From IMG/VR virus record IMGVR_UViG_3300036716_000446, positions 1 through 31,649 of that record: a stretch of 31,649 nucleotides of DNA, one strand, 5' to 3'. This document shows positions 1 through 21,900 of the stretch, piece after piece; positions within the stretch are counted from its first letter, which is position 1, and every line of letters starts with the position of its first letter. The translations under genes were made by a program, and so were the position numbers. The notes beneath the pieces were generated by a model. The model saw nothing but the letters and a program-made list of their open reading frames with translations. It searched no databases and was not told the origin of the DNA. Origin of the DNA: a virus.

Positions 1-1238
1 TCATCCAAATGGGTAACAGCCATCCAGTTATGAGTCATCTCATCTCCCGTTCTACTACCACCAACTACCCATTGATCTGGGTCTGGATTATTAGGATTGT
101 CGCTTGTGTTGTCGTACCATTGTTTCATTATTAAAACTGATCCTGCTGGAACCAACGGTGCGGCCGCTGGAGCAAATATATGGCTGTGATGCCAAGTTGC
201 GCTCCAATTTGATACTTGGCTCACTTCTTCTGTACGTCCTGTTGCTGGATGGAAAATCTCCAAACTAGCTGCGTTCATTCTTAAATGTCCGTGTGGTTGC
301 CAACTATCTATTCTTACAGGGTGATCAAAAGATTTAAACCCTTGTGTCATGTAATACCCATTAGGTGGGATAACTATATCAGCCTGATCTCCTAGCCTAT
401 ATAAACTTAAATCCTGTTTATACTTTGGCTCAAAGCCAGGCTCATGGAACCATAGTCCAATTTCAACAACGTTATCCTTAACCATTTCTCCTTGCGCAGT
501 AGCTCCTACTCCGCCTGGGAACATGTGAATATCCCAACGAACTTGTGCATTTGCTGGAAATGTTCTACAGACTCCTTCAGGGACTAACTCTCCCCACTTA
601 CCCATTGCATATTCAGTAAGCATTCCACCTTGTTGTTCGTTATCTAATATTAGATTAGAATTAGCGTGATGGACTACAGCTCTAGCTTCACCTCTTGGTT
701 TGACTTGTACTGCCTTAATACATCTATCCTCTGTGACACCAGAAGGAACAAGATGTTTGCTCCACATATCATTTCCATTGGCTGGAATGTCTACAGGTAC
801 TGATGCAATTACTAAGTTAGGTTCTCCAAAGTCTGGTGCAAAGTTCCATCCATCTAAATCCCTTAATTCAGGTGGTTGTAATATAATATCTTTGTTACCA
901 TACTGAGAGCCAGCTCTTACCCAATTGACTACCATGTCAATATCATTTTGAGATAGTCTCCAATCGCCTTGTAAGTCTTGAACGCCTATACCATGATCGT
1001 ACGCATATGGTGGCATCTCTCTTGTTGATACTTTGAGTTGTATTAAGGGTGCCCAAGGTCTTACTTCATCATAAGACTCAAAACTCATTGGACCTATTCC
1101 ACCTTGACGATGGCATACAACACAATTATTATTAATTATTGATGAAACGTCATCAACGTAGGTTATATCATCAGCATACACTTTGCTGGCAAACACCAAC
1201 AATACTGTAACTGTAATTACAGCTAATAAGGTTCTCAT
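1..1238 (-). CDS. Exported c-type cytochrome fused to a copper type II (PHM-like) monooxygenase domain; partial, runs off the left edge
   Basis: An open frame of 412 codons without a stop runs from ATG at 1238 to the window edge. Residues 1-22 are a signal peptide (hydrophobic core, cleavage after VYA). A single c-type haem site, CVVCH, lies at 39-43, and the later REMPPY segment could supply the axial Met. The rest carries ligand motifs of copper type II ascorbate-dependent monooxygenases (PHM/DBH fold): HH at 190-191, H238 or H265, HGH at 316-318 and Met401 in GDEMTHNW. This matches in order the CuA (H,H,H) and CuB (H,H,M) ligands of PHM. The same cytochrome-plus-monooxygenase arrangement is known to me from environmental bacteria, not from phages. 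A good ribosome site (AGGAAA) lies 12 bases after the RHH stop, so it is the last visible gene of the 45-44 operon. It would act in the periplasm as an electron-fed hydroxylase. The substrate is unknown and the C-terminus is not seen. Confidence 0.8.
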   Translation of the reverse strand, partial: MRTLLAVITVTVLLVFASKVYADDITYVDDVSSIINNNCVVCHRQGGIGPMSFESYDEVRPWAPLIQLKVSTREMPPYAYDHGIGVQDLQGDWRLSQNDIDMVVNWVRAGSQYGNKDIILQPPELRDLDGWNFAPDFGEPNLVIASVPVDIPANGNDMWSKHLVPSGVTEDRCIKAVQVKPRGEARAVVHHANSNLILDNEQQGGMLTEYAMGKWGELVPEGVCRTFPANAQVRWDIHMFPGGVGATAQGEMVKDNVVEIGLWFHEPGFEPKYKQDLSLYRLGDQADIVIPPNGYYMTQGFKSFDHPVRIDSWQPHGHLRMNAASLEIFHPATGRTEEVSQVSNWSATWHHSHIFAPAAAPLVPAGSVLIMKQWYDNTSDNPNNPDPDQWVVGGSRTGDEMTHNWMAVTHLD

Positions 1239-1249
1239 TCTTGTTTCCT

Positions 1250-1423
1250 CTAATTAAAGCCAAAATCTTTCTCTTTAGATTCCCTGTAACTTTCGAGCAA
1301 AAGCTCAGTTATAGAAATTTTACGTTTTTTAGCTTCTGCTTTTAATTCCTCTTTTAACTTCTCAGGAACACGAATGTCTATTCTAGCAGTTGCTTTTCCT
1401 GCTTCATTATAATCTTTTGTCAT
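1250..1423 (-). CDS. Ribbon-helix-helix (Arc/CopG-type) small DNA-binding protein
   Basis: A 57-residue protein. I chose ATG 1423 because it overlaps the stop of gene 44 as ATGA, the coupling seen throughout this window. An upstream in-frame ATG at 1459 would add 12 residues but lies inside gene 44. The segment TARIDIRVPEKLKEELKAEA is the beta strand and first helix of an RHH fold, followed by the turn KRKISITELLLESYRES. RHH proteins bind DNA as dimers through the strand, so this is probably a small transcriptional repressor. In T4 the next gene after 44 is 62, and this gene sits in that place. No partner toxin gene is adjacent, so a toxin-antitoxin role is not supported. The target is unknown. 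Confidence 0.7.
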   Translation of the reverse strand: MTKDYNEAGKATARIDIRVPEKLKEELKAEAKKRKISITELLLESYRESKEKDFGFN

Positions 1424-2358
1424 GCAAATTCCACATTCGCCATTATTTCTGTCAAACATGCAGTAAGGTTAATTTCCTGATCTGCCACAAATGCCGCTTT
1501 ATATTGATAATCGGCTATTAGCAGAACTAACTGTGGAATTGACTTAATCTCAGGTAATAGAGTATCATATATCTGTCTAAATATACCCTGAGGGTCAGTA
1601 TCCACATTGTTGGCTACCCACTGCCTCATCTTCTTCCAATCCTTCTCCCTTAGGCTCTCTATGAGCTGCTTAGCGTTGATTTCTTGGAAGTTACTTAGTA
1701 CACCCTCATCTATTTTTCCTGCTACTGAGTACCTTTGTAGCTCATTTATGACCCTACGATAGTCAGGAAAATACTTCATTAGGAGCTCAGCTAACACCTT
1801 CTCATTGTACTCAATACCTTCATTAGTAAGGATATGTTTCATCCTTTCCATAAACTTAGAGGCTAACACAGGGCGGTCTGAGGGTGCTATTTTGAAGTCC
1901 ACTACAGTCGTTCTACTGTGCAACGGTGTAATAATTCTATTTATATAGTTACATGTAAAGATAAACCTACAATTCGACGAAAACGTCTCTATGAACGCCC
2001 GTAGTGCCGGTTGGACACTCTCTCTGTTCAAATAGTCAGCCTCGTCGAGTATAACTACCTTAGTTTTGCCCTCAAAAGACACTGCTGATGCAAAGCCTCG
2101 TATTTTAGTTCTTAGGGTATCTATCTGTCTACCTTCATCTGAGCCATTAATAACTATATAGTCACAACCAAGTTCTTCGCATAATGCACGCGCGAGGGTG
2201 GTTTTACCAGTTCCTGCTGAACCAGTTAATAGTAAGTTAGGTATTTCCTTTTTAGCAATAAACTGCTGAAATGTAGTTTTTACTTCATCAGGTAAAATAC
2301 AGTCTTCTATGGTATGTGGACGATATTTCTCAACCCACAAAAATTGTTCAGGATTCAT
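1420..2358 (-). CDS. 44: Clamp loader large (ATPase) subunit, T4 gp44-like
   Basis: 312 residues, an AAA+ ATPase of the clamp-loader family. An N-terminal LWVEKYRP motif (residues 7-14), typical of RFC/gp44, is followed by Walker A GSAGTGKTT at 46-54, Walker B VVILDEAD, a sensor region FIFTCNYINRI, and an SRC-like arginine motif as HSR. With gp62 it would load the gp45 clamp onto primed DNA using ATP. It follows 45 in the same operon as in T4, but with a peroxiredoxin and a 60-aa gene between them. No gp62 homologue is recognisable next to it. The start is preceded by a GGAG ribosome site unusually far (15 bases) from the ATG, inside an 18-base sequence that also precedes uvsW. Confidence 0.95.
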   Translation of the reverse strand: MNPEQFLWVEKYRPHTIEDCILPDEVKTTFQQFIAKKEIPNLLLTGSAGTGKTTLARALCEELGCDYIVINGSDEGRQIDTLRTKIRGFASAVSFEGKTKVVILDEADYLNRESVQPALRAFIETFSSNCRFIFTCNYINRIITPLHSRTTVVDFKIAPSDRPVLASKFMERMKHILTNEGIEYNEKVLAELLMKYFPDYRRVINELQRYSVAGKIDEGVLSNFQEINAKQLIESLREKDWKKMRQWVANNVDTDPQGIFRQIYDTLLPEIKSIPQLVLLIADYQYKAAFVADQEINLTACLTEIMANVEFA

Positions 2359-2412: not shown

Positions 2413-3033
2413 CTAACCGAATTTCTCCTTAACAGAGGTCGTATCTGAGAAGTTCAACTCTATATTAGTACCGACACTATCATACTCGTCAGACATGATC
2501 GCTACCTCAGATGCTGCTTCTTTTACGGCCTCTAATACATTTTCAGGCCTACTAACATCATAAGGATCGTCTTCAGCATTGTCTTGGAAACCTTCTTCAA
2601 CAAATGACTTGATTATTGTTCCATCAGTTACCACTGCTGCGTATCTCCAGGACCTCATTCCAAAACCTAAGTTATCTTTCCGAACATCCATGCCCATTTT
2701 GATTGTAAACTCACCACTACCATCTGGTATCAATTTAGTATTTACAATGGCCTGTTTATCTCTCCACTCGTCCATAACGAATGTATCATTAACACTAATG
2801 CAATAGATGTCATCTATGCCTTGTTTTCTAAACTCATGATACAGATTTTCAAATCCTGGAAGCTGTTCTCCTGAACAGGTAGGTGTAAAGGCTCCTGGTA
2901 ATCCAAAAACTATTACTGTCTTATCTTTAAAAAGAGTATCTGTTTGTAGTGTGACCCACTTCTCTTCACCCGAAGTCAACATTACTCTTTTATGGAATGT
3001 TGCTTGAGGAATCTCTGCTGGTAAATTACTCAT
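2413..3033 (-). CDS. Peroxiredoxin, Prx5/AHP1 type
   Basis: 206 residues from ATG 3033. This start is chosen because AAGGAC lies 9 bases upstream and the ATG overlaps the end of the preceding gene (GATGAGTAA). The longer frame to 3066 has no ribosome site. The peroxidatic motif PGAFTPTCS places the catalytic cysteine at residue 53. The downstream segments CISVNDTFVMDEW, LIPDGSGEF and GMRSWRYAAVV are typical of the Prx5 group. It would reduce peroxides in the cytoplasm with thiols, and the phage glutaredoxin at 13908-14138 is a possible electron donor. The last 40 residues extend beyond the usual domain of about 160 residues. It sits between clamp genes 45 and 44, so it is expressed with the replisome and may protect replication during oxidative stress. 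Confidence 0.9.
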   Translation of the reverse strand: MSNLPAEIPQATFHKRVMLTSGEEKWVTLQTDTLFKDKTVIVFGLPGAFTPTCSGEQLPGFENLYHEFRKQGIDDIYCISVNDTFVMDEWRDKQAIVNTKLIPDGSGEFTIKMGMDVRKDNLGFGMRSWRYAAVVTDGTIIKSFVEEGFQDNAEDDPYDVSRPENVLEAVKEAASEVAIMSDEYDSVGTNIELNFSDTTSVKEKFG

Positions 3034-3208
3034 CGATTTCGTCCTTATTAAATATATCCAACTCACCCTTCATTACTTTTCTAACAAGTGATATTGCTGG
3101 GTTTGGACGAGTAAAGATGTACTCTATTGTCTCACCAAACTTATTAAACTCAACGATCCATCCGTTGGTGGCTTCTCTTAGAGTTACCTCTAAATTGTCT
3201 TCATTCAT
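3026..3208 (-). CDS. Small conserved-type protein downstream of 45, unknown function
   Basis: 60 residues, acidic ends, no recognised domain. The ribosome site AGGAG overlaps the stop codon of gene 45 and lies 8 bases before the ATG, so translation is coupled to the clamp. Its own end overlaps the peroxiredoxin start by 8 bases. The segment ATNGWIVEFNKFGETIEYIFT looks like beta strands (amphipathic, aromatic). Position and coupling support a real gene, perhaps a replisome accessory protein. No function can be assigned. Confidence 0.75.
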   Translation of the reverse strand: MNEDNLEVTLREATNGWIVEFNKFGETIEYIFTRPNPAISLVRKVMKGELDIFNKDEIDE

Positions 3209-3217
3209 ATAATACTC

Positions 3218-3874
3218 CTATATTTGTGATGAACGTTCTAATGCTAACCAATATTTTAATTCGCCCTTACTACTTTCTAGAAACATAAATTTCTTTTGTG
3301 AAAGTGTAACGCTATAACTTCCAGGGATTACCTTAAAGTTTTCTATTGCTAGTCTAGCATCAAACTCTTTGTCAGTGGTGCCTATTACTTGCCTAAAACT
3401 ATTAGACTTAGGTGTGCTAGGATCACTAACTGTTACTACTACTTCTTTCTTGTCGCCAACAACACTTAGCATAGGAGCTGCTGTAATAGCTGCTGCCTTT
3501 AAAATCATGTCAACGTCATCTTTAGTAAAGTCAAACTGGAAGAAGTTATCTACTTCAATACTTTTATCAGGTGCACTAACTATAATGTTAGGGTCTGCAT
3601 AGTAGTATTCAAAGACAGATGTGCCTTTACTAACTTTTAAACTTTCTTCTTGAAAGTCCACATTAGTATCTTCCATAAGGGTTAGTAGTGAAAGCAAACT
3701 ATTTAAATCATAGATTGCAAACTCTGTTGGAAAAGTATCTGACAATTCAGCTCTTGCAAATATATTTTTGCCTGTGCTAATTGTAGATAATGTATTCCCT
3801 TCACGAACTAGAATGTTCGTGTTTATTGTCGCAAAGTTCTTGAGTATATCAAGGGTTCCTGTGCTTATTTTCAT
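3218..3874 (-). CDS. 45: Sliding clamp, T4 gp45-like
   Basis: 218 residues, close to the 228 of T4 gp45. It starts with MKISTGTLDILKNFATIN and contains FPTEFAIYDLNSLLSLL, both typical of gp45, and ends in an acidic-hydrophobic strand. Three copies form a ring around DNA that tethers the polymerase. In T4 the clamp also links gp55-RNA polymerase to late transcription, and gp55 is present here at 22985-23593. A ribosome site GGAG lies 9 bases before ATG. Its own promoter (3912-3940) overlaps the 3' end of the SGNH-like gene, so the 45-44 operon can be expressed apart from the late cassette upstream. Confidence 0.95.
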   Translation of the reverse strand: MKISTGTLDILKNFATINTNILVREGNTLSTISTGKNIFARAELSDTFPTEFAIYDLNSLLSLLTLMEDTNVDFQEESLKVSKGTSVFEYYYADPNIIVSAPDKSIEVDNFFQFDFTKDDVDMILKAAAITAAPMLSVVGDKKEVVVTVSDPSTPKSNSFRQVIGTTDKEFDARLAIENFKVIPGSYSVTLSQKKFMFLESSKGELKYWLALERSSQI

Positions 3875-3911: not shown

Positions 3912-3940
3912 ATTATAGACTCTATGTAACCAGCAATCAA
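3912..3940 (-). promoter_or_regulatory. Early/middle promoter of the 45-44 operon
   Basis: The -35 TTGATT (3935-3940) and -10 TATAAT (3912-3917) are 17 bases apart. GGTT occupies spacer positions 4-7, as in five other promoters of this window. The expected start is near 3905, giving a leader of about 30 bases with the ribosome site. Confidence 0.75.
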
Positions 3941-4914
3941 CTGTTAAGAGTACCAAAAGCATCTAATTCGAATTCTACTTTGTCTGCAAGAGCCAAATGT
4001 ACTGACGCACCTGGATGTAAAAGGTCTCTACTTACCTGCTCTACGGTAGCGCCTGGGGGTGGGATCTTATCTTCCATTGGTTTTAATATCATATCACTCA
4101 TTGTATTTAAATCTGTCTCAGGATCGCCTGTTAATGTAATTCCAATCCCAGCCATGAAGTGATGGATAATATGAAGTTCATCATCTACTAGATTAGATGA
4201 GGATTCTTTAGACATATCTTCTAATGTATCTGATGTTCCGTTGATCCATGTGACAGGTATGTTCCAATGCTCAGCAAGCCTAATTATTGTTTTCATCATT
4301 AACATATGATGCCACTTCGCTATACCCATTGATTGATATAAAAAGAGAAGATCTTTTTCATCACCTGATGTATGCCTAGCACGGATTGCTGCTGGAATGT
4401 AATCTATATTCTTTATATTAACCGGTACTCCTGGCACACCTACTGATACGCCTGTTGAATTTTGTGAACCAGCTAATAAGATATGCTTGGGTGGTGTTCT
4501 CCAGAGCTTACTTAACTGTAAAAAATTAAAAGGTATGGCCTCTAATCTGCCACCATAAGTTGATGCGTTATAAAAAGGAATGCCTGTTCTTTCTTCTAAA
4601 ATGTTTTGAAATAGATCTCTCGAATGTAATCCTGGACCAACACCAACACATTCTGTAGAACATAAGATCCATTCATCAGGCAAGTCTGTTATTTCACGAT
4701 CAGATCTGAAACCAAGTGAATCAAATTTGTAAGTAACTGGATCAACGGTATCGTTATCATAATACTTCCACGTTGGTCCGTATTTTTCTTTTGCTTTACT
4801 GAACCATTCAAACGACTCGTGCAACATCCATCTATATTCCTCATTAGGATCTGCTTGATATGATATCAAGCCATGTTTTCCTAGTGTTACTTTATATAAG
4901 GGAACGTTATTCAT
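3937..4914 (-). CDS. SGNH/GDSL-hydrolase-like protein with an altered nucleophile block
   Basis: 325 residues. DSLGFRSD (about 65-72) followed by a hydrophobic strand, then VGVGPG, then YNASTYGGR, follows the order of SGNH acylhydrolases (NSLGFR, GDSxxxGxGV, NxxxxG). The C-terminal RDLLHPGASVH supplies the expected DxxHPG Asp/His pair. The first block reads CSTECVGVGPG where GDSFTFGxGV is usual, so the nucleophile would be Ser or Thr displaced by one position, or activity may be lost. It may cleave or transfer acyl groups, perhaps on surface glycans or acyl thioesters. It overlaps the crotonase by 8 bases and shares its late promoter. The fold is fairly likely; the activity is uncertain. Confidence 0.6.
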   Translation of the reverse strand: MNNVPLYKVTLGKHGLISYQADPNEEYRWMLHESFEWFSKAKEKYGPTWKYYDNDTVDPVTYKFDSLGFRSDREITDLPDEWILCSTECVGVGPGLHSRDLFQNILEERTGIPFYNASTYGGRLEAIPFNFLQLSKLWRTPPKHILLAGSQNSTGVSVGVPGVPVNIKNIDYIPAAIRARHTSGDEKDLLFLYQSMGIAKWHHMLMMKTIIRLAEHWNIPVTWINGTSDTLEDMSKESSSNLVDDELHIIHHFMAGIGITLTGDPETDLNTMSDMILKPMEDKIPPPGATVEQVSRDLLHPGASVHLALADKVEFELDAFGTLNS

Positions 4915-5668
4915 TAATGAACTTTGGTGGACGTTTCTCTAAATATGCAGCAAGGCCTTCATGAAGATCTTTTGATTCAATTTGCATCTCCAGAGCCCAC
5001 TCTGCATAAGATACTGCCTCGTCCATATTAGAATTTACTGTATGCCAAATAGAACCTTTAGTTCCTCGAACAGCTATAGGCCCATTGAAATTAGCAATTT
5101 TATGTGCGTATGCCATTGCTTGTTCATAAACATCACCATCACAAATCTTATTACATAGGCCTACTTTATCTAACCATTCAACATCATAGACTTCGCCCAT
5201 CATAAATTCCATTGTTCTATTATGACCTATCCTTTGTGTCAATTTAACCTGCATTGTTACAGCATTGAATCCTAATTTAGTTTCTGGACAGGCAAATTTA
5301 CTATTTTTATCTGCGAAAACAAAATCGCTTGCTAACAAGACACCAAACCCATCACCAATACAAACTCCTTTTATTGCTGATATAATTGGTTTAGGTGTAA
5401 CCATGTCACCGTCTGTTAGCATATTGCTCATGCCAGATGAAATGTCTCTGAAGCCTGTTTTAACATCGGCTCCTGCACTGAAGTGATCTTTGTCTGTTGT
5501 AATGACGAGAACCCTTGCTTCATCTTCATCTCTGAAATGAACAATGGCGTCATTGTATCCTGGGTAATAGGCCCTGTCTAAGATATTCATTGGACCTACT
5601 CCGTTTATTGTTAAAACGGCGACGTGATCGTCTTTTAATTCGTACGTGATTCTCTCACCAAACTCCAT
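4907..5668 (-). CDS. Enoyl-CoA hydratase/isomerase (crotonase) family protein
   Basis: 253 residues, full length for the family (about 260). The first oxyanion segment is FSAGADVK (63-70) and the second KGVCIGDGFGVLLASD (100-115). PETKLGF at 128-134 carries Glu129 at the usual acid position, and the C-terminal helix ends in EGLAAYLEKRPPKF, the common family ending. Crotonases act on acyl-CoA thioesters by hydration, isomerisation or hydrolysis. The subtype cannot be told, and the second catalytic Glu is not clear. The gene has a good ribosome site (TAGGAG) 17 bases after the preceding gene, and is followed with an 8-base overlap by the SGNH-like gene. A late promoter serves all three, which is odd for fatty-acid metabolism. 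It may be an auxiliary metabolic gene. Confidence 0.88.
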   Translation of the reverse strand: MEFGERITYELKDDHVAVLTINGVGPMNILDRAYYPGYNDAIVHFRDEDEARVLVITTDKDHFSAGADVKTGFRDISSGMSNMLTDGDMVTPKPIISAIKGVCIGDGFGVLLASDFVFADKNSKFACPETKLGFNAVTMQVKLTQRIGHNRTMEFMMGEVYDVEWLDKVGLCNKICDGDVYEQAMAYAHKIANFNGPIAVRGTKGSIWHTVNSNMDEAVSYAEWALEMQIESKDLHEGLAAYLEKRPPKFINE

Positions 5669-5685
5669 AATATAACTCCTAACTA

Positions 5686-6018
5686 TTAAAAACTAGCGAA
5701 AGTTTCTCCTTCACTATCTGTTATCACGCATGTAACGTTTGCTGCTTGGCAAGCCGCTTTGTATGCTGTGTTTGCAGCTGCTTCATCTGGTAGTGCGTTT
5801 AGCTCTGTCAGGATAGCATCGAATGCTGCTTTGTCTGCTGTTGTTCCTTCTACTGTGAGGGTTAACTCATCACCGGACCATGTATATGTTTTCGTAACTC
5901 CTGCTGCATCATATTTATTTCTAACTACAATGTCATGATCAGGATGTGAATCAGAAACCTTAGGTATTTCAACACCTGTATTAGGTCTTGTCAATGTAAC
6001 TGTTCGTGTATATGCCAT
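5686..6018 (-). CDS. Late small protein of unknown function, possibly virion-associated
   Basis: 110 residues without recognised domain. Two halves are visible: a beta-rich N-terminal part (Thr/Val-rich, TYTWSGDELTLTVEG) and an Ala-rich helical part (DKAAFDAILTELNALPDEAAANTAYKAAC). The composition resembles small virion or decoration proteins. A TATAAATA late promoter lies 41 bases upstream and a ribosome site GGAG about 10 bases before ATG, so it is expressed late. It leads the crotonase/SGNH cassette. Confidence 0.75.
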   Translation of the reverse strand: MAYTRTVTLTRPNTGVEIPKVSDSHPDHDIVVRNKYDAAGVTKTYTWSGDELTLTVEGTTADKAAFDAILTELNALPDEAAANTAYKAACQAANVTCVITDSEGETFASF

Positions 6019-6058
6019 TTCTTACTCCAAAATTCTAGTTTATACTGCTTATTACTCT

Positions 6059-6066
6059 TATTTATA
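6059..6066 (-). promoter_or_regulatory. Late promoter (TATAAATA) of the crotonase cassette
   Basis: An exact T4-type late box on the minus strand, directly after the terminator of the cobS/DUF3310 unit. The expected transcript start is about 6053, leaving a leader of about 35 bases before ATG 6018. It would be read by gp55. Confidence 0.8.
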
Positions 6067-6091
6067 AAGAAAAGGCCTGCTAAGCAGGCCT
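6067..6091 (-). terminator. Rho-independent terminator after DUF3310 gene
   Basis: Stem AGGCCTGC / GCAGGCCT (8 bp) with a 3-base loop, followed on the minus strand by TTTTCTTT. It separates the cobS-DUF3310 transcript from the late promoter that begins immediately downstream. Confidence 0.85.
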
Positions 6092-6109
6092 GAATGGTTG
6101 AATAAATAC

Positions 6110-6385
6110 CTAATTGTCATGTACATTTAAGGCAATTATTGCGTAGTGTAGGACCTTAAGTAAGTCTGCTCTGGCATCTTCTGGTGTTCCTTTCTTGCCA
6201 TATCTTTGTGCATACTTTAAGATGTTTCCTATACAAAATCCTATTCCATGTCCTCCATCAATAATAAATTCAGTTGCCTGAAATTTATCTGAGGAGTAAT
6301 GTCCGTTGCCGTATGTTGCGTCGATGTAACGACGGAGCTCGTCTATGAGCTCCCCTTCGTTAAACTTATACTCTGGCTTAGTCAT
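6110..6385 (-). CDS. DUF3310-family small phage protein
   Basis: 91 residues from ATG 6385. This start overlaps the end of the CobS-like gene by 8 bases (GATGACTAA), the usual coupling here; a longer frame to 6442 lies inside cobS. The core FCIGNILKYAQRYGKKGTPEDARADLLKVLHYA matches the DUF3310 pattern (GNxxKYxxRxGxKxxxxxDLxKxxxY), with HY near the start. DUF3310 proteins are common in phages, often near nucleotide-metabolism genes; their biochemical role is not settled. This is the last gene before a terminator. Confidence 0.85.
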   Translation of the reverse strand: MTKPEYKFNEGELIDELRRYIDATYGNGHYSSDKFQATEFIIDGGHGIGFCIGNILKYAQRYGKKGTPEDARADLLKVLHYAIIALNVHDN

Positions 6386-7574
6386 CGTCTTCGATTTCAA
6401 AGTCTTCATGAATCTCCTGTTCCTTTTCAGTATTATCATCAAGTTCTACTGTTGGATCAACCTTGGTGTACAAATCAATGAATGCTTGTTTAGTATCATC
6501 ATCAAATCTGTTGACACATAGTTGAACTGCTTTCTTTTTGTCTCCAAAAACTGCATAAGCGTTAACGATGTGCTCCAATCTACGTGTTGAAATTAGCTCA
6601 TCAATAGCTCCTTCGTAGTAAGTTTTTCTTATTACGTCGGACCAAGTAACTAAGTGAGTTGCAAAACCTTCGTCTACATTGTTCACTCTTTCCATTTTCT
6701 TGATAACTATTTTCTTTTCCGTAGCCATTGTAGGGTACTCCTGCTCCACGGTGATCGCAAACCTTTCTAGGAATGCTTCGTCGAGTATGTTGGCACTTAT
6801 AAATTTGCCATCATCTGATCCTCGACCCTTCGTATTGGCGGTTGCCACTATGTTGAAGCCGGGAGCAGGAGTAACGGTTTCGCCTGTCTTCTTGTTGAAA
6901 TAAGGCTTCCCCTCAAGGATGGCTTGTAAGCACATCAACTTGTTTGAACCCCTATCAATTTCATCAAGAATGAGAACAGCGCCCCGCTTCATCGCGGTGA
7001 GGACGGGCCCTTCTCTATACACAACGTTACCGTCAATTAGAGTATTGCCACCGATCAAATCGTCCTCATCAGTTTCAATACTAACATTTACTCGTATGGC
7101 TTCTCTTTTAAGAGCTGCACATACTTGTTCAGCCATTGTGGTTTTACCATTACCTGATAAGCCACTAATGAATATTGGATAAAACATGTTACCTTGTAAC
7201 ACCTTTTTCAAATCTTTATAAAAACCAAACGGTACGAATGTTTTATCCTTCGCTACAATTAAGTCCTCGACTTCAACTTTAAGTTTAGCTTGGACAAGCT
7301 CTGCTGGGAGCTGTGTTTCAACTACTTCAAGTGGAACTCTAGGAGCTGCCACTGGAGCTGTTTGAACTGCTGCCATACCTGAACCTTGAAACATGGGTGC
7401 TAGATTATAAACACCTCTGTCCACTTTGTAGGTTGGTTTGTTAAGTAGCCAGGCTGGAAAACCAATTCCTAAGCCAGTAGCTATTTCCATAATTTGCTTA
7501 CGGGTAAAAACACCTGTGCCATTATCATTGGCTTCTAGTTCTTCCTGTAATCTTGCTCTATCTTCTTGTTTCAT
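6378..7574 (-). CDS. cobS: CobS/MoxR-like AAA+ ATPase
   Basis: 398 residues. The N-terminal 100 residues hold a small helical domain (KQIMEIATGLGI) and a Pro/Ala linker. The AAA+ core follows: Walker A GLSGNGKTT at 138-146, Walker B GAVLILDEIDRG, sensor 1 NIVATANTKG, and the Arg region EAFLERFAITVE. The C-terminus is strongly acidic (ending EDDD). MoxR/CobS ATPases work with a metal-ion-binding (MIDAS) VWA partner, here the CobT-like gene upstream. In cobaltochelatase the pair inserts cobalt; in phages lacking CobN the pair more likely remodels another complex. The gene has its own early promoter and a GAGG ribosome site. A cobalamin role is not shown. Confidence 0.85.
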   Translation of the reverse strand: MKQEDRARLQEELEANDNGTGVFTRKQIMEIATGLGIGFPAWLLNKPTYKVDRGVYNLAPMFQGSGMAAVQTAPVAAPRVPLEVVETQLPAELVQAKLKVEVEDLIVAKDKTFVPFGFYKDLKKVLQGNMFYPIFISGLSGNGKTTMAEQVCAALKREAIRVNVSIETDEDDLIGGNTLIDGNVVYREGPVLTAMKRGAVLILDEIDRGSNKLMCLQAILEGKPYFNKKTGETVTPAPGFNIVATANTKGRGSDDGKFISANILDEAFLERFAITVEQEYPTMATEKKIVIKKMERVNNVDEGFATHLVTWSDVIRKTYYEGAIDELISTRRLEHIVNAYAVFGDKKKAVQLCVNRFDDDTKQAFIDLYTKVDPTVELDDNTEKEQEIHEDFEIEDDD

Positions 7575-7610
7575 AAATTATTTCCTCACTTAATTTAATT
7601 TATACTGTAT

Positions 7611-7639
7611 ATTATGAACCCTTTTGAACCAAGAGTCAA
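7611..7639 (-). promoter_or_regulatory. Early/middle promoter of cobS
   Basis: TTGACT (7634-7639), 17-base spacer, CATAAT (7611-7616). The spacer begins CTTGGTTC, identical to the cobT promoter over these eight bases, so the two partner genes share a promoter type. Confidence 0.8.
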
Positions 7640-7656
7640 CCTTTTTATTAAAAGAT

Positions 7657-10146
7657 TCATGCTACTAACTCTATGATTTTGTTAAGGAACAGTCTCTGAC
7701 TTGTTTTTCCTTTGTTAAAAGCTCTAAATCCTCTCATCAAATCGCCTTTCTTACTGGATTTTACTTCCAATTCTTGGTTTTTGATTTTAAGATCATCTGC
7801 TCCTTTCATTAGGAACCTTTGATCAAATCCAAATTTGTCTTCAACCATCATAAACTTATCCTTTAAACAACCTTTCCAATCAGTTGAACTCCATTCGTGT
7901 GAAGGCCAGCTGTTTGTATAATGATCTGGATCATTGCTGTCCATCCATTCATTCTTAACGAACTCATTCCAAAAGGCATTTTTCTTACCATCAATAATAT
8001 GGAAGTTTATTAATCTTGATCCTGTGGTTTGTTGGTACCACTCTAACAATGTTGGAGTAGACATTTCGTTTCTTGAGTACCTGCTTACTTTTCCACAATC
8101 AAGAATTATTGTTGCACTACCATCTTTAATTGCAACCTTTTCATCATAAATGCTTCTAGCCCTAGGCTCCATTGGCTCACCTTTATAATCTTTCCTACTT
8201 ACATAACCTAAGCTGTCTGTTGCTCCACCATCTGTTAAAAATATTGTACTTAATATTTCAACGTTATATCTTTTTCTAAATCTTTTTGCCACTTCCTTAC
8301 CAACAATAATTGCTGAGTTAAGAGGTGTGCTACCTAAACTAAAATGTCTGTTTTTAATATAGCCCCAATACTCATTCTCGCTATAGTCATTGTAGTATCT
8401 TCTGTGATCCCAACCACATTTGATAACTGTTAAATACTTCATTGCATTTAAGTATTCATTCTTTGAACATAGTGAGGACAACATGTGGACCAAGCAAAAA
8501 CTGCTGTTGTCAACTATCATTTGTCCGTCTTCAGCAGTCTTAATTGCTTCTCTTTGCTTAGTGTACCAGTGGTTAGCTTTTTCTTCATCACTGTAACGAT
8601 CATTAATTCCGCTTGTACTAAAACCATATACATCAAATGGAATGTTGACCTTCCTACAAAATGCTGCCACTGTCATCATTTGATCTACTGTTCCTGACAT
8701 GTTCTTGTACATACTTCCTGATAAGTCTACGAACATTAGGATGCCATGGTTTTTACCGTTGGGTACTAATAAAGCTCTTTGGAATAAATCTTCTGTTACT
8801 TTATAAGCCCAAAGTTTATCCTCATTCAACTTGCCTGTCTTGGCTTCTGAGGTTTTCTGATAAGCAGTTGCTGCTTTTCTAAGCTCAAATTGTTGTGCCA
8901 TACTATTAATAATTGGAGTCTGTGTTCTGTTCCACGTCTCATAAGACTTAGTAGCTACGTCATACACTTCATTAACAGGTATTGTACGCTCTTGCCAACG
9001 ACCGTCTTTGTCTCTGTAACCTTGTTGTAAGTCAATTGATTCCGCCCAATCATATAATTCGTTCATTGGGACTATAAAATCTTCTGGATTTAAATTTGGT
9101 GCCTTAACATATACAAGAGTGGATGCGTCCTGATCAACTAATTCTTTTTCGTTGGCTCTAAAACTGTTATCACTAAATGATTCTCCAGTTTCCAATGCCT
9201 CTTGAAGCTTATCTAATTTTTCTTTAAGTTCTTTGTCCTTTTTTAATTGTTCAGCTGCTTCTTTTTTAGCATCTTCTTCAGCTTGTCTCTCTTCGGGAGT
9301 CATCGCTAACCATCTTTCGTATTCTTCGTCTCTTTTCTTTTGTTTTTCTTCACGCTCAGCTTCAAGTCTAGCGTCTTCCTCTTCTTCAGTTTCATTTTCA
9401 TACTCATCTGGATCTACTGGAGTACCATAACTATCTGATTCTACTTCATTGATGTCTGGTTTTTCTTCTGTTTGTTCTTGTGATTGCTGGCTTTCACCTT
9501 GTTCCATCTGTTCGCCATCATCATCTTGTTGGAATCTATCAGGCATCATTTGATCAATCATTGATTCAAGTTCGTCTTTTTTCTCTTCCAAGTCTTTCTG
9601 ATTGGCTTCAAACAATTCATTTGCCAAACGTTCAACGTCTTCCCAAGTTTCAGTATTATAAATTCTGTCTACTAAATCTTTTTCCTCATCACTAAATACG
9701 ACACCCATCATGTGGCCTACTTTATAATGTAAGTTCACTCTATCAATTAATGGGAGTTTGTTGATGTCTAAATCTTTTATTCCAAAAAAGTCTCCATCAA
9801 CTAATTCTTTATAGCCTTTGAAAAAGCTACTAACCAATCCAGGATATCTTTCTTTAACCTTACGTTCAATCCTTACATCTTCAACCACGTTAAGGAAGTT
9901 TTTCATAGCCTTGTTATCACATACTGCGTCATGCCATCCTTCTGCAGGTGTTTCATGAGCATGTCCTACTTCATGGCCAATGAATAAGTCATAAAGTGGT
10001 GAAGACATCTTCTTCCAAAGTGGAAGGTATAAAGTCCTAGCTTTAACATCAAATGCCGCAGTTGGCATTTTAGGATCATGTACTATTGAAATGTCTTCTG
10101 TTGCTAAACATTTTGCTAGTATTGATTTGGATTGTATTTGGTTCAA
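7657..10146 (-). CDS. cobT: CobT-like VWA-domain protein with an HEVGH metallopeptidase-like motif
   Basis: 829 residues, TTG start at 10146 after a GAGG ribosome site; no ATG fits. Residues 58-62 are HEVGH, an HExxH zinc site, followed by NVVEDVRIERKVKERYPG, which may give the third ligand. Residues about 170-330 are a long acidic/Gln-rich coiled-coil linker (EEE and KKE runs). The C-terminal third is a von Willebrand A domain with MIDAS motif DLSGSM near 470, and later TDGGATDS. The order resembles CobT, the partner of CobS, which follows directly with its own promoter. Together they probably form a MoxR-VWA type remodelling machine; the HExxH motif suggests proteolysis or metal binding. 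Weak TTG initiation may keep its level below that of CobS. Confidence 0.85.
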   Translation of the reverse strand: MNQIQSKSILAKCLATEDISIVHDPKMPTAAFDVKARTLYLPLWKKMSSPLYDLFIGHEVGHAHETPAEGWHDAVCDNKAMKNFLNVVEDVRIERKVKERYPGLVSSFFKGYKELVDGDFFGIKDLDINKLPLIDRVNLHYKVGHMMGVVFSDEEKDLVDRIYNTETWEDVERLANELFEANQKDLEEKKDELESMIDQMMPDRFQQDDDGEQMEQGESQQSQEQTEEKPDINEVESDSYGTPVDPDEYENETEEEEDARLEAEREEKQKKRDEEYERWLAMTPEERQAEEDAKKEAAEQLKKDKELKEKLDKLQEALETGESFSDNSFRANEKELVDQDASTLVYVKAPNLNPEDFIVPMNELYDWAESIDLQQGYRDKDGRWQERTIPVNEVYDVATKSYETWNRTQTPIINSMAQQFELRKAATAYQKTSEAKTGKLNEDKLWAYKVTEDLFQRALLVPNGKNHGILMFVDLSGSMYKNMSGTVDQMMTVAAFCRKVNIPFDVYGFSTSGINDRYSDEEKANHWYTKQREAIKTAEDGQMIVDNSSFCLVHMLSSLCSKNEYLNAMKYLTVIKCGWDHRRYYNDYSENEYWGYIKNRHFSLGSTPLNSAIIVGKEVAKRFRKRYNVEILSTIFLTDGGATDSLGYVSRKDYKGEPMEPRARSIYDEKVAIKDGSATIILDCGKVSRYSRNEMSTPTLLEWYQQTTGSRLINFHIIDGKKNAFWNEFVKNEWMDSNDPDHYTNSWPSHEWSSTDWKGCLKDKFMMVEDKFGFDQRFLMKGADDLKIKNQELEVKSSKKGDLMRGFRAFNKGKTSQRLFLNKIIELVA

Positions 10147-10255: not shown

Positions 10256-11824
10256 TTACATGCTTAAGTCAAAAGATATGAGGAATTCTCGTCCACCAGC
10301 ACTATATTCTGGCAATATTTCGAACCGTTTGTTGAAAACGTCTCTGACTTGTAACCCTACCCTGTATCTGGGTCCTAAATAGTAACCCAGGGTTAGGTCT
10401 AATGTTGATACATTATCTATAGGACGGCCCGCCCAATCCAATCCTTTATCAAACTCACCTATATATGATAGGCCATAGTCTAATTTTCCAAACATGTTTG
10501 AGTAGGTTAATCTAGTCTTATACTTGGCTGCTTGGATCTTATCTGTATCTGTGTACTTCAACATCATTTTAAAGTTCTGGAATGACTTGGTGAAATTAAT
10601 GCCTTGGGATTTATATTTGCCTGTGTTGATGTATTGATAATCACTGAAATTAAAATCTATTCCATCACTAAAATCATAATGCCAAATTGTAATGTCTTTC
10701 CAACCAACTTCTAGTCCCACTCCTTTCTCAGCATTTAAAAGTGGATTAGGTTTTACTAATGCATCACCATAACGTTCGTATAAATTTGGAATCCTATAAC
10801 TATTTCCTAATGAAACTCTAAAATCTTTTACTTCTATACCTACTCTACCTGTTTGAACATCATCTTCAAAACGATATCCTACTCCAAGTTTATATGGAAT
10901 TACAGAAGATCTTTCTAGTGCCTTCTGTTCTGTGTGCCAATTAAAATAGACTCCTGATCTCCAGGCGTTATATCTTACAGGGATAGGAGATCTAAAGTAG
11001 TAGTCGTAATCTGATTGTTGGGCTGTCACACCTGCTAAGAAATTCTTATATTTGTACTTCGCATCTGCAAATAGTCTAGAACTTTTAGCTCCCCAGCCTG
11101 TATTATGTTGAGCGCTGTTTAAATTATAGCCTACTGTAAGCCAATCATTTCTAATAGATATATCTGTTTTATATCCAGATTGATTACAATCATTATATTC
11201 AATAGGACTAGGTAGACAATCATCATAATCGTAAGAGTAATCTTGAGACACCATAACAACATCGAAGCCAGCATAATTTGCTTTGGTTTTAAGTGTTGTA
11301 TTATCATACCAATCTTCTTCTGTGTTTGTTGTTTTAACAGAGCCTATTGATCCTTTATACCTTGCTATTTGAAACCACTCGTTGCCACCTGTTATGAACT
11401 GTGAGCTATCACTCCCTTTATAAAAGACATGTTTTTCAAATGTATCTTCTATAAGAATTGTTCCTGCCATTGAGGAGCTTCCAAACAATACACCATTAGG
11501 TCCTGTGATTTTCTTATAGTCTTGCCATGTAGGTAAGTCTATTCCGAAATCATACCACCCTGAAGCTGGATCGTTAACGGGTATCCCGTTTCTATATACT
11601 GCTGTATGTTTTGAGTCTGTGCCGTTTAAACCTACTGCTGCAAAGCCCCCTGGGCCGCCAGGAGTATATACTTTTGTTGATTCAACTGCCTCTATTGCTG
11701 AGTTGTCGTGTGCTGGATCTGAATATCCCTCAGAAACCTTTGCTCCTACTACTATTGTTTCTTCTACTTCTGCTAATGCTATAGTAGGAAATAGCACTAA
11801 CAACATTATAATAAACTTCCTCAT
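10256..11824 (-). CDS. TonB-dependent outer-membrane receptor (BtuB-like), compact
   Basis: 522 residues. Residues 1-18 are a signal peptide ending ALA. EETIVVGA at 21-28 is a TonB box. A short plug follows, with YRNGIPVNDP, IDLPTWQDYKKITGPNGVLFGSSSMAGTILI, the family pattern (iDGxpvn, veRIevlrGPxsxlyGsxaxgG). The rest alternates hydrophobic and aromatic residues in strands, with RIPNLYERYG and a BtuB-like last part (DVFNKRFEILPEYSAGGREFLISFDLSM region). The terminal residue is Met rather than Phe. It is about 90 residues shorter than BtuB, with a reduced plug. Such receptors import cobalamin or iron chelates; in a phage it could alter host uptake, or mask or replace a phage receptor. It starts within the stop of the 41-aa exported peptide gene (ATGA). 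Confidence 0.88.
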   Translation of the reverse strand: MRKFIIMLLVLFPTIALAEVEETIVVGAKVSEGYSDPAHDNSAIEAVESTKVYTPGGPGGFAAVGLNGTDSKHTAVYRNGIPVNDPASGWYDFGIDLPTWQDYKKITGPNGVLFGSSSMAGTILIEDTFEKHVFYKGSDSSQFITGGNEWFQIARYKGSIGSVKTTNTEEDWYDNTTLKTKANYAGFDVVMVSQDYSYDYDDCLPSPIEYNDCNQSGYKTDISIRNDWLTVGYNLNSAQHNTGWGAKSSRLFADAKYKYKNFLAGVTAQQSDYDYYFRSPIPVRYNAWRSGVYFNWHTEQKALERSSVIPYKLGVGYRFEDDVQTGRVGIEVKDFRVSLGNSYRIPNLYERYGDALVKPNPLLNAEKGVGLEVGWKDITIWHYDFSDGIDFNFSDYQYINTGKYKSQGINFTKSFQNFKMMLKYTDTDKIQAAKYKTRLTYSNMFGKLDYGLSYIGEFDKGLDWAGRPIDNVSTLDLTLGYYLGPRYRVGLQVRDVFNKRFEILPEYSAGGREFLISFDLSM

Positions 11825-16865: not shown

Positions 16866-17339
16866 TTAGCCCTCGTATATTGCTGAATTAGCCCCATGTT
16901 CCCTTACTTCACAAGCGACACAATAGCATCGCCCTCCTGTTAATTCTTTTACCAAGTCATTAGCAAAATGGAATGCTTGCTCTGCAAACTTCTCACAGCC
17001 AACACCATTCATAACTACTACTTCTGTTAATCCTTTTTCTTCTAGCTTTAAAAAATCTTGTAATGCAGGATCGTCTTTATCAACTGCATGTTTATGATCA
17101 AAGTTATTTTTTAACCATGCTTTTAAGTCCTTCAAGCCTCCAAAATCCACTACCCAATTCTTATTATCTAAACGATCACAACCAAATTTAAAACTAAACG
17201 ACAAAGCGTAACCATGTAGTAAACTACAATGACTGTGCGTTGCTGCATGTTGTCTAAAAACTGCTGATAAGCCTTCTTCGTGGCCATATGTTTTTGTTGA
17301 ATAGTGTTTATAATCTATATACGGATCTGGTCTGTTCAT
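16866..17339 (-). CDS. queD: 6-carboxytetrahydropterin synthase (QueD), long form
   Basis: 157 residues, T-fold. HSHCSLLHGYALSF (35-48) holds the catalytic Cys38 and zinc His42; the second His of the usual HGH is Tyr44, as I recall for a long-form QueD subgroup. VVDFGGLKDLK and FDHKHAVDKDDP are the substrate-binding and catalytic His segments, and CEVREHGANSAIY contains the terminal Glu. It makes 6-carboxytetrahydropterin from dihydroneopterin triphosphate, the FolE product. It starts inside the glycosyltransferase stop (ATGA) and ends 2 bases before gene 47. Confidence 0.9.
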   Translation of the reverse strand: MNRPDPYIDYKHYSTKTYGHEEGLSAVFRQHAATHSHCSLLHGYALSFSFKFGCDRLDNKNWVVDFGGLKDLKAWLKNNFDHKHAVDKDDPALQDFLKLEEKGLTEVVVMNGVGCEKFAEQAFHFANDLVKELTGGRCYCVACEVREHGANSAIYEG

Positions 17340-18403
17340 ATTAACTCCTGATATAAGTTTGTTGCCGAGAAGTAATGCTTCTCAAGTTTTTCTCTATTAG
17401 TATTTAATGCGCCTTGTATCTCAGGCAAGTTATAATTTTCCATTAAATATTTAATTCTATTTTTTAAACCAAACTTGTTGGCTTGATACTGTTCCCAATT
17501 CTCTGTCCAGTCTGAAGGATATTTAAACACATCATCATACATTTCCATATAGGAAAGTCTGTTTGGAACAAAAGGTATGCCGCCTGTTATCATAATTTCA
17601 TAACAAGATATGCCTAATGTCTCCTGTAAGTTAGCACTGAATACCATCTTTGCTTGTCCTAATAACAAGTGATAGTCTTCTTTCTTTAAATTAAACTCCG
17701 AACAATTCATAAAATCATATTCAGGAAGTGCAACTTCTAAGTCTTTAAATATTTCTAACTGTTTCTCTGGTGCATTTCTGTGTGGAAACAATATTAGATC
17801 TTGTTTCTCTACACCCATTGTATCTCTATCAATGGTTGGTTTTAAATATTCCATTGGCCAGCCTGTTCTAACCATTTTACTTTGTAAATATTCTTGTTGT
17901 GAAGGATCAGGTGCCATAACACTAGCAAACATTCCTATATGGAATTGACTAGCGAAATAATTTTTATCAAACGCATCGAACATTGCTAACTCTGCATACC
18001 TTACCCAAGGTACTGGTCCTATGTTTCTACCTAAGAAATCATTAGCATCATAACTTCCTGCATGCCAAAGTCCATGTGTTGTAACATCATAACCCAATAA
18101 AGATATCATATATTTTAAATTTAAGATACCTGGATGCCAAGCGTCAGCAAATACAAAATGATCTCCATCTTTTATCTTGCCTTCTGCAAAGAATTGTGCT
18201 AAAAGTTTTGTTTGTTCTGACTTGTATATGTTAGTGGTGGCAAAATCTAAAAAAGATCCTGAGGAAACATCAGACTCTATAACAGGTCCTTCTATAACTG
18301 TTATGTCTTGTCCTGTTTGGTCCGCTATTGATTGTGGAAATTCTGTTTTCCATTGTGATGTATATCTTGTCTCGACATACTCAAGATCAATTAAATAAAT
18401 CAT
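17336..18403 (-). CDS. GT-B glycosyltransferase-like protein inside the deazaguanine operon
   Basis: 355 residues from ATG 18403, which overlaps the T-fold gene by 17 bases and begins with the first beta strand MIYLIDLEYV. In-frame ATGs at 18427 and 18436 are alternatives, and 18427 has an AGGA site. The C-terminal half looks like a GT-B (GT4-type) donor domain: LILFPHRNAPEKQLEIF, MVFSANLQETLGISCYEIMITGGIPFVPNRLSYMEMY. The ETLG..CYEI..TGG..FVPN pattern fits nucleotide-sugar binding. The N-terminal half has HFVFADAWHPGI and HGLWHAGSYD. Its position between two T-fold genes, with short overlaps, suggests action on the modified base or nucleotide. A role in surface glycans cannot be excluded. 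Confidence 0.72.
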   Translation of the reverse strand: MIYLIDLEYVETRYTSQWKTEFPQSIADQTGQDITVIEGPVIESDVSSGSFLDFATTNIYKSEQTKLLAQFFAEGKIKDGDHFVFADAWHPGILNLKYMISLLGYDVTTHGLWHAGSYDANDFLGRNIGPVPWVRYAELAMFDAFDKNYFASQFHIGMFASVMAPDPSQQEYLQSKMVRTGWPMEYLKPTIDRDTMGVEKQDLILFPHRNAPEKQLEIFKDLEVALPEYDFMNCSEFNLKKEDYHLLLGQAKMVFSANLQETLGISCYEIMITGGIPFVPNRLSYMEMYDDVFKYPSDWTENWEQYQANKFGLKNRIKYLMENYNLPEIQGALNTNREKLEKHYFSATNLYQELI

Positions 18404-18749
18404 TTTGTACGATTGCCCCGTTTTCATTATCCTCATACACTTCTACTTGAGTAGCTCTATTAGGATAATATTCTTCTATATAATTTATAAGACTTTCAGC
18501 CATCATCTCACATGACTGGTAGTCTAGTTCTAGGAAGCCTGCTTCGTATAAACCTTCTATTTCTCTTTTAAATAAAATGAATTCTACTTCCCTATTGTCG
18601 TGCATAACTTCTAACGTAACATAGAAGTGAAAGATATGTCTGTGTGGATATTGTAAAAACTCTACACCAGGAACATCCTTTGCATCAGGCCATTTGTGTA
18701 TGCCTTCTTTCTGAAAACTAACTTTAATAAACTTTTTTCTAACTGACAT
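18387..18749 (-). CDS. QueD-like small T-fold protein
   Basis: 120 residues. PHRHIFHFYVTLEV (35-48) with His36, His38 and His41 resembles the HxHxxH strand of QueD-type T-fold enzymes. EFILFKREIEGLY takes the place of the DFxxLK segment, and TQVEVYEDNENGAIV resembles the terminal VxExxxxGA strand. No cysteine is near the His cluster, so QueD catalysis itself is unlikely. It may be a QueD partner, a pterin-binding protein, or an enzyme of a different base modification. Its ribosome site AATGGAGA lies about 12 bases before ATG. It overlaps the glycosyltransferase by 17 bases. Confidence 0.65.
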   Translation of the reverse strand: MSVRKKFIKVSFQKEGIHKWPDAKDVPGVEFLQYPHRHIFHFYVTLEVMHDNREVEFILFKREIEGLYEAGFLELDYQSCEMMAESLINYIEEYYPNRATQVEVYEDNENGAIVQNDLFN

Positions 18750-18810
18750 ATAAAATAGTCTCCATTATTATAAAGGTAAACATTACTATAAAAACTAACC
18801 ACTCGTTCAT
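18739..18810 (-). CDS. Possible 23-aa hydrophobic membrane peptide
   Basis: The ATG at 18810 overlaps the dpdA-like stop as ATGA, the same coupling as confirmed genes here. The frame encodes MNEWLVFIVMFTFIIMETIL plus YVS, one membrane-spanning stretch, and ends inside the start of the T-fold gene. It fills what would otherwise be a 57-base gap, rare in this operon. It is too short to be sure. Confidence 0.35.
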   Translation of the reverse strand: MNEWLVFIVMFTFIIMETILYVS

Positions 18811-20075
18811 TCAAACATCTCCTCTAGACTTACTGGCATTTCTTTAGCTACTGCCATGGACTTCATAGCTCCACCTAAATATTGATTTGTTTCCCACGCC
18901 ATATAATCATCTTTATTTTTTACATTATATAGGTTCCTAAACTGTCCATCAAGTTTCATCTTACGAGTAAACTTTAAAAGGGCATCCTTATCTAACAACA
19001 TCTGTTCTAAGTGTTGCATGAAGTTTCTAATAGACATTAGTATAAAAGCTGTCCTCACATACAACCACGTATTCAAGTTGCCGTATTCTTCTTTAGCTTT
19101 CATACTCGGGGTGTTTAATAATTTATGAAATTCGTCTATTTCTACACCCAAATTGATCGTTTCCATACAGTTTTGATACATTTCGCGATACAAATTGGAC
19201 ATCTGTCTATTAAACTTAGTTGTGCCTTGTCCCATGTAGAATAACCCTGTCTCAACCGCCCTGCTGTGTGTAGTAGAGTCATAAGATATCTCTACGTTAT
19301 CATATAAACCGTTCTGACAAAAGACTAAGTAAGGAACAATACGTCTTATTGAACCTACTCCTAATATATGTAAGTGCATCTTATCTCTTGGCCATGTCTT
19401 TGCTACTTCTGATGCTATAAATGATCTTTTAACATCTTCTAGTGGTCCTGTTCCAAGAGCAGCTGCTCCCATTGCCACACCACCAATCCTAGTGTGCCAT
19501 TCACTTGGTATCTCTTCCATTAAACATTCATACCATCTCAAATAAGTCTCTACATCATTACCTTGTAAGATAATATATGGTTCACAGCTGCTACCTTCTT
19601 CTTCAAAAATTTCTAATTGTCTTTTAACATTGCGTCCAGTTTTTCTTGCTAGCTCTTCATAGTTTTCGTGATCAAAGAACCTTTGTTTAACATCGTTCCT
19701 ATCTGAGCGTTCTCCTGTTAGTATAACAGGTATCTCATCAAAGCACATACCAACATTAGCTCCTTTAGCCTGGTTCCTATATACTTTTTCTTTTAATTCG
19801 TCTGTAATTGTCATTCCTTGTGTAACAATTTGTAGTCCACCTGAGTCTGCATGTATGCTATGTGCTGCGTCATGATATGGTTTGAATCTATCACCAAAAG
19901 AATGTTCTGTGTGTGCATTATAAAGTAATGAAAACTTATGACTGAATTGATCTTGTACTAATTTTTTTATTAGCATAGACACAATGCTTGTATTGGTTTC
20001 ATCAAAAGCAATATTAGGATTACTCAAACGCATGTATGAGGTTCCTGATACTACATAATCTAAGGTGTGTTTCAT
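18807..20075 (-). CDS. dpdA: DpdA-like DNA guanine transglycosylase (TGT superfamily)
   Basis: 422 residues. ADSGGLQIVTQG at 76-87 matches the TGT DSGGFQ motif with catalytic Asp77. MCFDEIP (110-116) matches the substrate-binding FDE, GGVAMGAAALG the GGLAVGE-like strand, HILGVGS the HLLGVG, and ISYDSTTH places the nucleophile at Asp266. The CxCxxC zinc motif of tRNA enzymes is not seen. With queD, queE and folE in the same phage operon, DNA rather than tRNA is the likely target: DpdA enzymes swap guanine in DNA for a 7-deazaguanine, blocking restriction. It starts inside the exonuclease stop (ATGA). Confidence 0.82.
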   Translation of the reverse strand: MKHTLDYVVSGTSYMRLSNPNIAFDETNTSIVSMLIKKLVQDQFSHKFSLLYNAHTEHSFGDRFKPYHDAAHSIHADSGGLQIVTQGMTITDELKEKVYRNQAKGANVGMCFDEIPVILTGERSDRNDVKQRFFDHENYEELARKTGRNVKRQLEIFEEEGSSCEPYIILQGNDVETYLRWYECLMEEIPSEWHTRIGGVAMGAAALGTGPLEDVKRSFIASEVAKTWPRDKMHLHILGVGSIRRIVPYLVFCQNGLYDNVEISYDSTTHSRAVETGLFYMGQGTTKFNRQMSNLYREMYQNCMETINLGVEIDEFHKLLNTPSMKAKEEYGNLNTWLYVRTAFILMSIRNFMQHLEQMLLDKDALLKFTRKMKLDGQFRNLYNVKNKDDYMAWETNQYLGGAMKSMAVAKEMPVSLEEMFE

Positions 20076-21691: not shown

Positions 21692-21900
21692 TTTGTAAAC
21701 CACATTCTAATAGCGAAAACTCTAACGATTGCAATACATGTAAAACACCCTGTTAATAATATTGATATTGTAAAGGTTGATAATTCTAATACATCTATGA
21801 ACAAGTACAAAAGGCCCACACTTATAGGCCAATTAATTATTAGGCCGGTAAATACTGTAACCAACGATTCTTTAAGTGCTTGCTTCTGTCTTTTGTTCAT
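21688..21900 (-). CDS. Small two-helix membrane protein (DUF7220-like)
   Basis: 70 residues. A basic N-terminus (NKRQKQALKESLV) leads to two hydrophobic helices (about 16-36 and 41-60), then a basic end RVFAIRMWFTK. The pattern KQxxxESLxxxxxGxxIxxP...IVRxxxxRxxF is that of a small phage membrane protein family often annotated as DUF7220. ATGA overlaps with both neighbours. The function is unknown; a holin role is unlikely in an early operon. Confidence 0.75.
   Translation of the reverse strand: MNKRQKQALKESLVTVFTGLIINWPISVGLLYLFIDVLELSTFTISILLTGCFTCIAIVRVFAIRMWFTK

Follow-up and report, generated by a model that had tools for sequence, protein, structure and literature searches.

An IMG/VR phage genome carries a gene that we consider probably to be an auxiliary metabolic gene of gammaproteobacterial origin, encoding an exported cytochrome c-type II (PHM/DBH-fold) copper protein that would hydroxylate a small substrate. 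The gene lies at one end of the window, by which we mean the whole stretch of DNA analyzed here (31,649 nucleotides; record IMGVR_UViG_3300036716_000446, positions 1 to 31,649). The PHM/DBH copper fold is best known from the animal hydroxylases that make hormones and neurotransmitters.

The gene and its phage genome

The open reading frame in the window begins with ATG, runs for 412 codons and is still open at the contig end, where 15 codons are missing (Table 1). The complete gene, encoding 427 aa, was recovered from a second IMG/VR contig (L001:5808-7091) that is 99.86% identical to the window over 7045 bp. There the next gene after the cytochrome-copper gene is gene 62, for the A subunit of the clamp loader (PF16790, E = 2.8e-13), which places the insertion between T4 genes 44 and 62. 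The order in the window is gene 45, peroxiredoxin, gene 44, a small ribbon-helix-helix (RHH) protein and the cytochrome-copper gene, in agreement with a preliminary description, made from the sequence of the window, that had placed the gene downstream of 44. The RHH gene is kept upstream of the cytochrome-copper gene in the window clade, and its 69-aa product is a possible regulator of this neighbor.

The surrounding genome is that of a marine T4-like phage of bacteria. Its T4 core genes include gp44, gp45, gp23 (phrog_138, E = 1e-160) and the tail tube, and the nearest cultured relatives of its gp23 are those of Methylophilales phage Melnitz (70.5%) and Pelagibacter phage HTVC008M (68.5%). 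A 76.6-kb contig (holding L003) has a window-like 44/62 arrangement, continues to a gene for DNA polymerase, apparently gene 43, and also encodes capsid, terminase and T4 portal proteins. Assignment of the gene to a phage is borne out by its place between replication genes 44 and 62, by the hallmark phage genes on the 76.6-kb contig, and by its position beside the capsid gene elsewhere.

The artifact that would undermine this assignment is a misjoining of host DNA to phage contigs, which we regard as vanishingly improbable. Several viral contigs, like the window, end inside the cytochrome-copper gene, as a misjoin might leave them, but the independent contig L001 reads through the gene into gene 62, which excludes an assembly error of this kind. 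Moreover, contigs from many samples hold the gene at equal phage positions, it is preceded by a lineage-specific phage late promoter, and the viral copies form essentially one clade.

Table 1. Features of the cytochrome-copper gene and its neighbors in the window (all coordinates are window positions).
Feature	Position	Strand	Basis
Cytochrome c - PHM/DBH-like copper protein gene	3..1238	-	412 of 427 codons present
M401 (EM motif), third CuM/CuB ligand	36..38	-	Invariant in A3
H316-G-H318, CuM/CuB ligands	285..293	-	At least 90% conserved in A3; aligned with DBH HTH
H238, third CuH/CuA ligand	525..527	-	Invariant in A3; aligned with single His of DBH
C224	567..569	-	Invariant in viral set
H190-H191, CuH/CuA ligands	666..671	-	Invariant in A3; aligned with DBH HH pair
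C173	720..722	-	Invariant in viral set
M75-P-P	1008..1016	-	M75, P76, P77 kept in at least 90% of alignment A3
Heme c attachment motif C39-V-V-C-H43	1110..1124	-	Sequence and conservation
Putative Sec signal peptide, residues 1-22 (VYA/DD cleavage)	1173..1238	-	Read by eye from translation; model helix 2-17
Putative ribosome-binding site AGAGGA	1246..1251	-	Sequence reading, 5' of start
Ribbon-helix-helix (CopG/Arc-like) protein of 69 aa, next gene upstream after a gap of 11 nt	1250..1459	-	RHH_1 over cut-off
T4-like clamp loader gene 44	1420..2358	-	Gp44_lid, E = 1.2e-15
Peroxiredoxin between genes 44 and 45	2413-3066	-	phrog_2281, E = 9e-65; conserved in window clade
T4-like sliding clamp gene 45	3218..3874	-	DNA_PPF, E = 1.5e-7

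Other genes of the window, all on the same strand, include one for a 325-aa protein without a Pfam or PHROG match that is kept in the window clade (3937-4914), and an enoyl-CoA hydratase/crotonase gene (4907-5668; PF00378, E = 1e-33) without a PHROG match, whose relatives among the listed phage-record matches are <30% identical. A 522-aa protein (10256-11824) has a signal peptide, a TonB plug (PF07715, E = 1.8e-5) and a barrel resembling the vitamin B12 receptor (TIGR01779, E = 9e-18, below the cut-off); it has six IMG/VR relatives at 78-100% identity, one of them on the 76.6-kb contig with a cytochrome-copper copy, and the phage collection has only two partial matches to it, both from records whose names denote Salmonella genomes. 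QueD-, TGT-, FolE- and QueE-like genes (16866-22943), named by eye from their translations, suggest queuosine/7-deazaguanine metabolism. IscA-like and IscU/SufU-like iron-sulfur genes (27057-27805) were likewise named by eye, and other phage contigs, for example L019 and L032, also have IscA-like genes in the neighborhood of their cytochrome-copper gene. Downstream of gene 62, L001 encodes a radical SAM protein and a 2OG-Fe(II) oxygenase (8165-10100).

Heme and copper sites in a PHM/DBH-like fold

The protein opens with a signal-peptide-like stretch (MRTLLAVITVTVLLVFASKVYA followed by DD; an eye reading of the translation) and continues to a CVVCH heme site, both located where the preliminary description had put them. 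Together with the invariance of CxxCH in the viral set, a conserved Met75 and model helices at residues 27-38, 56-71 and 97-108 identify the N-terminal part as a c-type cytochrome, which the window protein matches in Pfam at a sub-threshold level (E = 0.0067), export being judged by eye. M75 is likely to be the distal heme ligand, as its conservation suggests.

Conservation was assessed among 32 representative viral homologs (<90% identical) and in A3, a 32-sequence alignment whose members extend to bacterial paralogs only about 25% identical and whose mean column identity is 29%. The residues C39, C42, H43, H190, H191, H238, H316, H318 and M401 are invariant in 32/32 viral representatives. 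Far beyond chance, H190, H191, H238 and M401 are also among the only nine invariant columns of A3, where C39, C42, H43, M75, H316 and H318 are conserved in at least 90% of the sequences. The copper ligands proposed in the preliminary description (H190, H191, H316, H318 and M401) are thus all retained, and its choice of H238 or H265 for the remaining position falls to H238, with H265 only 19% conserved across the 32 viral homologs. H306, H350, H351, H353, H403 and H410 are invariant among viruses yet variable in the distant homologs of A3, and for this reason are not counted as ligands. In A3 the H316/H318 pair has been lost from at least one relative in bacteria, L090, so members of the family need not all be monooxygenases. 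C173 and C224 form a possible disulfide pair.

An AlphaFold2 model built from a 58-row alignment (pLDDT 88.3, pTM 0.85) was searched against the PDB with Foldseek, and each of its 31 top matches (ranks 1-31) is a DBH or PHM structure, with E-values of 8e-13 to 2e-9 and TM to PHM of 0.55-0.62, while the next, unrelated proteins start at E = 4e-5. Identity to PHM/DBH is 11-17% (11-15% in the structural alignment to PHM). An earlier AlphaFold model from viral homologs only reached a pLDDT of 65, yet already matched PHM/DBH. No convincing viral structural relative was found in BFVD (best TMq 0.29).

Sequence comparison leads to the same superfamily. The family profile A2 finds human DBH in the PDB (E = 6e-4); in the alignment H190/H191 pairs with the HH of DBH, H238 with its single H and H316-x-H318 with its HxH, which accounts for five of the six ligands. 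PDB searches found nothing with the single window sequence and cytochrome stretches only with profile A3, and the window protein obtains no score with Pfam PF03712 and PF01082. Bacterial homologs from the same genomes as its relatives nevertheless pass the PF03712 (Cu2_monoox_C) cut-off, among them L172, which the window protein matches at E = 7.8e-67, indicating a homolog that lies below the reach of the model. The two-domain PHM fold of the copper type II monooxygenase superfamily is therefore recovered by Foldseek, and the superfamily's ligand pattern (HH...H and HxH...M) is present, five residues by alignment to DBH and the Met by motif and fold. M401 would be the counterpart of PHM Met314, placed by motif and fold only, and the PHM-like fold taken together with the alignment suggests that the six copper ligands would meet in space. 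As a description of fold, the fusion of cytochrome c and copper monooxygenase read from the window agrees with the structure prediction, the match of A2 to DBH and the homologs over the Cu2_monoox_C cut-off.

Distribution among phages and bacterial origin

Relatives of the gene are encoded in 233 IMG/VR stretches, and the locus analyses cover the best 80 of these. Neither cytochrome-copper paralog was matched in 50,697 records of cultured phages. The statement in the preliminary description that no phage example was known needs correcting in that viral relatives are numerous. Among the best 80 loci, T4-like phages carry the gene in two positions, either at genes 44/62, as in the window, or directly after capsid gene 23 (14 loci), before the tail tube where the contig reaches so far; the gp23 proteins of these 14 are 84-90% identical to that of the window. 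The gene also follows an endolysin gene in a lineage of phages with PolA-type DNA polymerase, and occurs on a phage contig of 340 kb that also encodes capsid, portal and terminase proteins. A second full-length cytochrome-copper paralog, ~25% identical, is present in 35 loci, mostly directly downstream, and in the capsid-linked T4-like contigs a distant paralog of this kind usually comes after the gene. On the 340-kb contig (L038), curli-like genes (4959-9367; CsgG-like and repeat-rich exported proteins, judged by eye) adjoin the cytochrome-copper pair on its upstream side.

The T4-type late promoter TATAAATA precedes 12/14 of the capsid-linked copies, 37-46 nt upstream of the start used, against a chance expectation of about 0.01 per upstream region; the starts taken for L067 and L074 are probably wrong. 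No such motif is present in the 90 nt upstream of the window copy. Because related phages have the gene behind this late promoter, the early-type operon of the preliminary description applies to the window lineage only. Among the 80 contigs closest in gp23, 11 have the gene in the capsid-adjacent slot, which marks it as an accessory gene.

In bacterial genomes, 210 stretches encode relatives, and those kept are 63-77% identical and come nearly all from marine Gammaproteobacteria. Each of eight bacterial genomes tested has 14-39 copies of the family. The paralogs of Pseudohongiella-like, OM182 and Pseudomonadales marine gammaproteobacteria share domain order and ligands with the sampled viral copies at 63-73% identity, and the viral copies nest among them. 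The bacterial genes differ in lying in clusters of 1-5 tandem copies, often opposite a divergent redoxin-cytochrome-copper gene, whereas a phage copy is either single or accompanied by one distant partner paralog. A ~318-aa unknown gene is found in many of the bacterial loci. GMC oxidoreductase or gluconate dehydrogenase neighbors, considered as a pathway clue, occur in only 18/72 bacterial loci (7/33 of the long ones) and so are not strong evidence for a pathway.

In a tree of 25 viral representatives and bacterial paralogs, the viral sequences group together inside the gammaproteobacterial paralogs (SH-aLRT 96-99), which fits one old capture from gammaproteobacteria followed by spread among phages. 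One 6.7-kb 'Flavobacteriales' contig falls among the viral sequences, and we take it for viral DNA that was misbinned. L082, a 335-kb contig labeled 'Neomarinimicrobiota', has T4-like replication genes beside its cytochrome-copper gene and looks viral; L081 and L082, from Flavobacteriales and Neomarinimicrobiota MAGs, are probably phage contigs binned into bacterial MAGs. Values of dN/dS among viral copies are 0.08-0.17 in 6/7 pairs, indicating purifying selection, and 0.38 in the pair L014/L024, where a local frameshift is suspected. The gene is host-derived, fixed in phage genomes and under selection, which are attributes expected of an auxiliary gene.

Proposed function and implications

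In the mechanism that we propose, the signal-peptide-like start would direct Sec export, and the host Ccm system would attach to C39/C42 a heme whose axial ligands would be H43 and probably M75. Conservation and the predicted fold suggest that two coppers would be bound, at H190/H191/H238 and at H316/H318/M401. The heme would take the place of ascorbate by handing on to the coppers, one at a time, electrons received from respiratory carriers in the periplasm, and it is the fused cytochrome that suggests a reductant other than ascorbate. The second copper would then activate O2 for the hydroxylation of a substrate that is small and probably not a peptide. Two residues before HxH the window protein has a Gln, as does DBH (Q-x-H-x-H) and in difference from PHM, at what we take to be the position of the substrate-binding Arg240 of PHM. 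Arg240 binds the peptide carboxylate, and with Gln in its place peptide amidation, or a peptidylglycine substrate, appears unlikely. By this activity an infecting phage would sustain or boost a periplasmic oxidation of the host type, early or middle in infection in the window lineage, judging from the position in the replication operon, and late in the capsid-linked lineage, judging from position and promoter. The most likely benefit to the phage is that a host oxidation pathway is sustained, followed by redox balancing and then by envelope effects.

The same fold and metals could belong to a protein that is not a hydroxylase but works in the periplasm in electron transfer, or as a redox sensor or oxidase, and during infection drains or balances the electrons of respiration or removes O2 or peroxide. 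Such a role, which we think unlikely though by no means far-fetched, is consistent with the conservation of the fused heme in at least 90% of A3, with the loss of the second copper site in paralog L090, with the pairing of the family with a redoxin-cytochrome-copper protein in host clusters, and with the peroxiredoxin gene close by in the window, but a pure electron carrier would have no need of the two full copper sites, including the CuM Met, that viral copies keep. It is quite improbable, in our estimate, that the exported protein acts on the envelope or medium of the infected cell rather than on metabolism, serving late in infection in the exclusion of other phages or in release. The late promoter of the capsid-linked copies, the position right after the endolysin gene in one lineage and the apparent export, as read from the sequence, would suit that role, while the 14-39 paralogs in bacteria, outside any phage context, suggest a metabolic family, and in the window clade the place of the gene is the replication operon. 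Hydroxylation of a small substrate by an auxiliary metabolic enzyme remains the reading that we prefer.

The window protein resembles PHM and DBH in the predicted fold of its C-terminal ~300 residues and in its full His3 and His2Met ligand set, and the viral and bacterial proteins differ from them in the c-type cytochrome fused at the N-terminus, so that the PHM/DBH copper fold is here joined to heme, in bacteria and in viruses. Among the genes of host copper enzymes, amoC (ammonia monooxygenase) and nirK (nitrite reductase) are known to have copies in phages (PMC8115048). Like those, the gene described here is a marine phage copy of a host copper/respiratory enzyme; the folds are unrelated, and amoC encodes one membrane subunit whereas the window protein is a complete soluble, self-contained heme-copper protein, predicted to be exported. 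A search of the open-access literature brought up no viral protein of the PHM/DBH type. While amoC and nirK copy well-studied host enzymes, the window gene derives from a large, apparently uncharacterized bacterial family, and the phage copies indicate which of the dozens of host paralogs deserve study first.

Collectively, these data point to a periplasmic O2-dependent oxidation that is important enough in infected cells for several phage types to carry a gene for it. Tentatively, unrelated marine phages may share an exported heme-copper oxygenase module that rewires host periplasmic respiration or chemistry and, as part of the same doubtful but possible scenario, this module would consist of two proteins in many phages and be expressed with virion genes in some. 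If so, copper enzymes that activate O2 outside the cytoplasm would give phages a means of manipulating their hosts.
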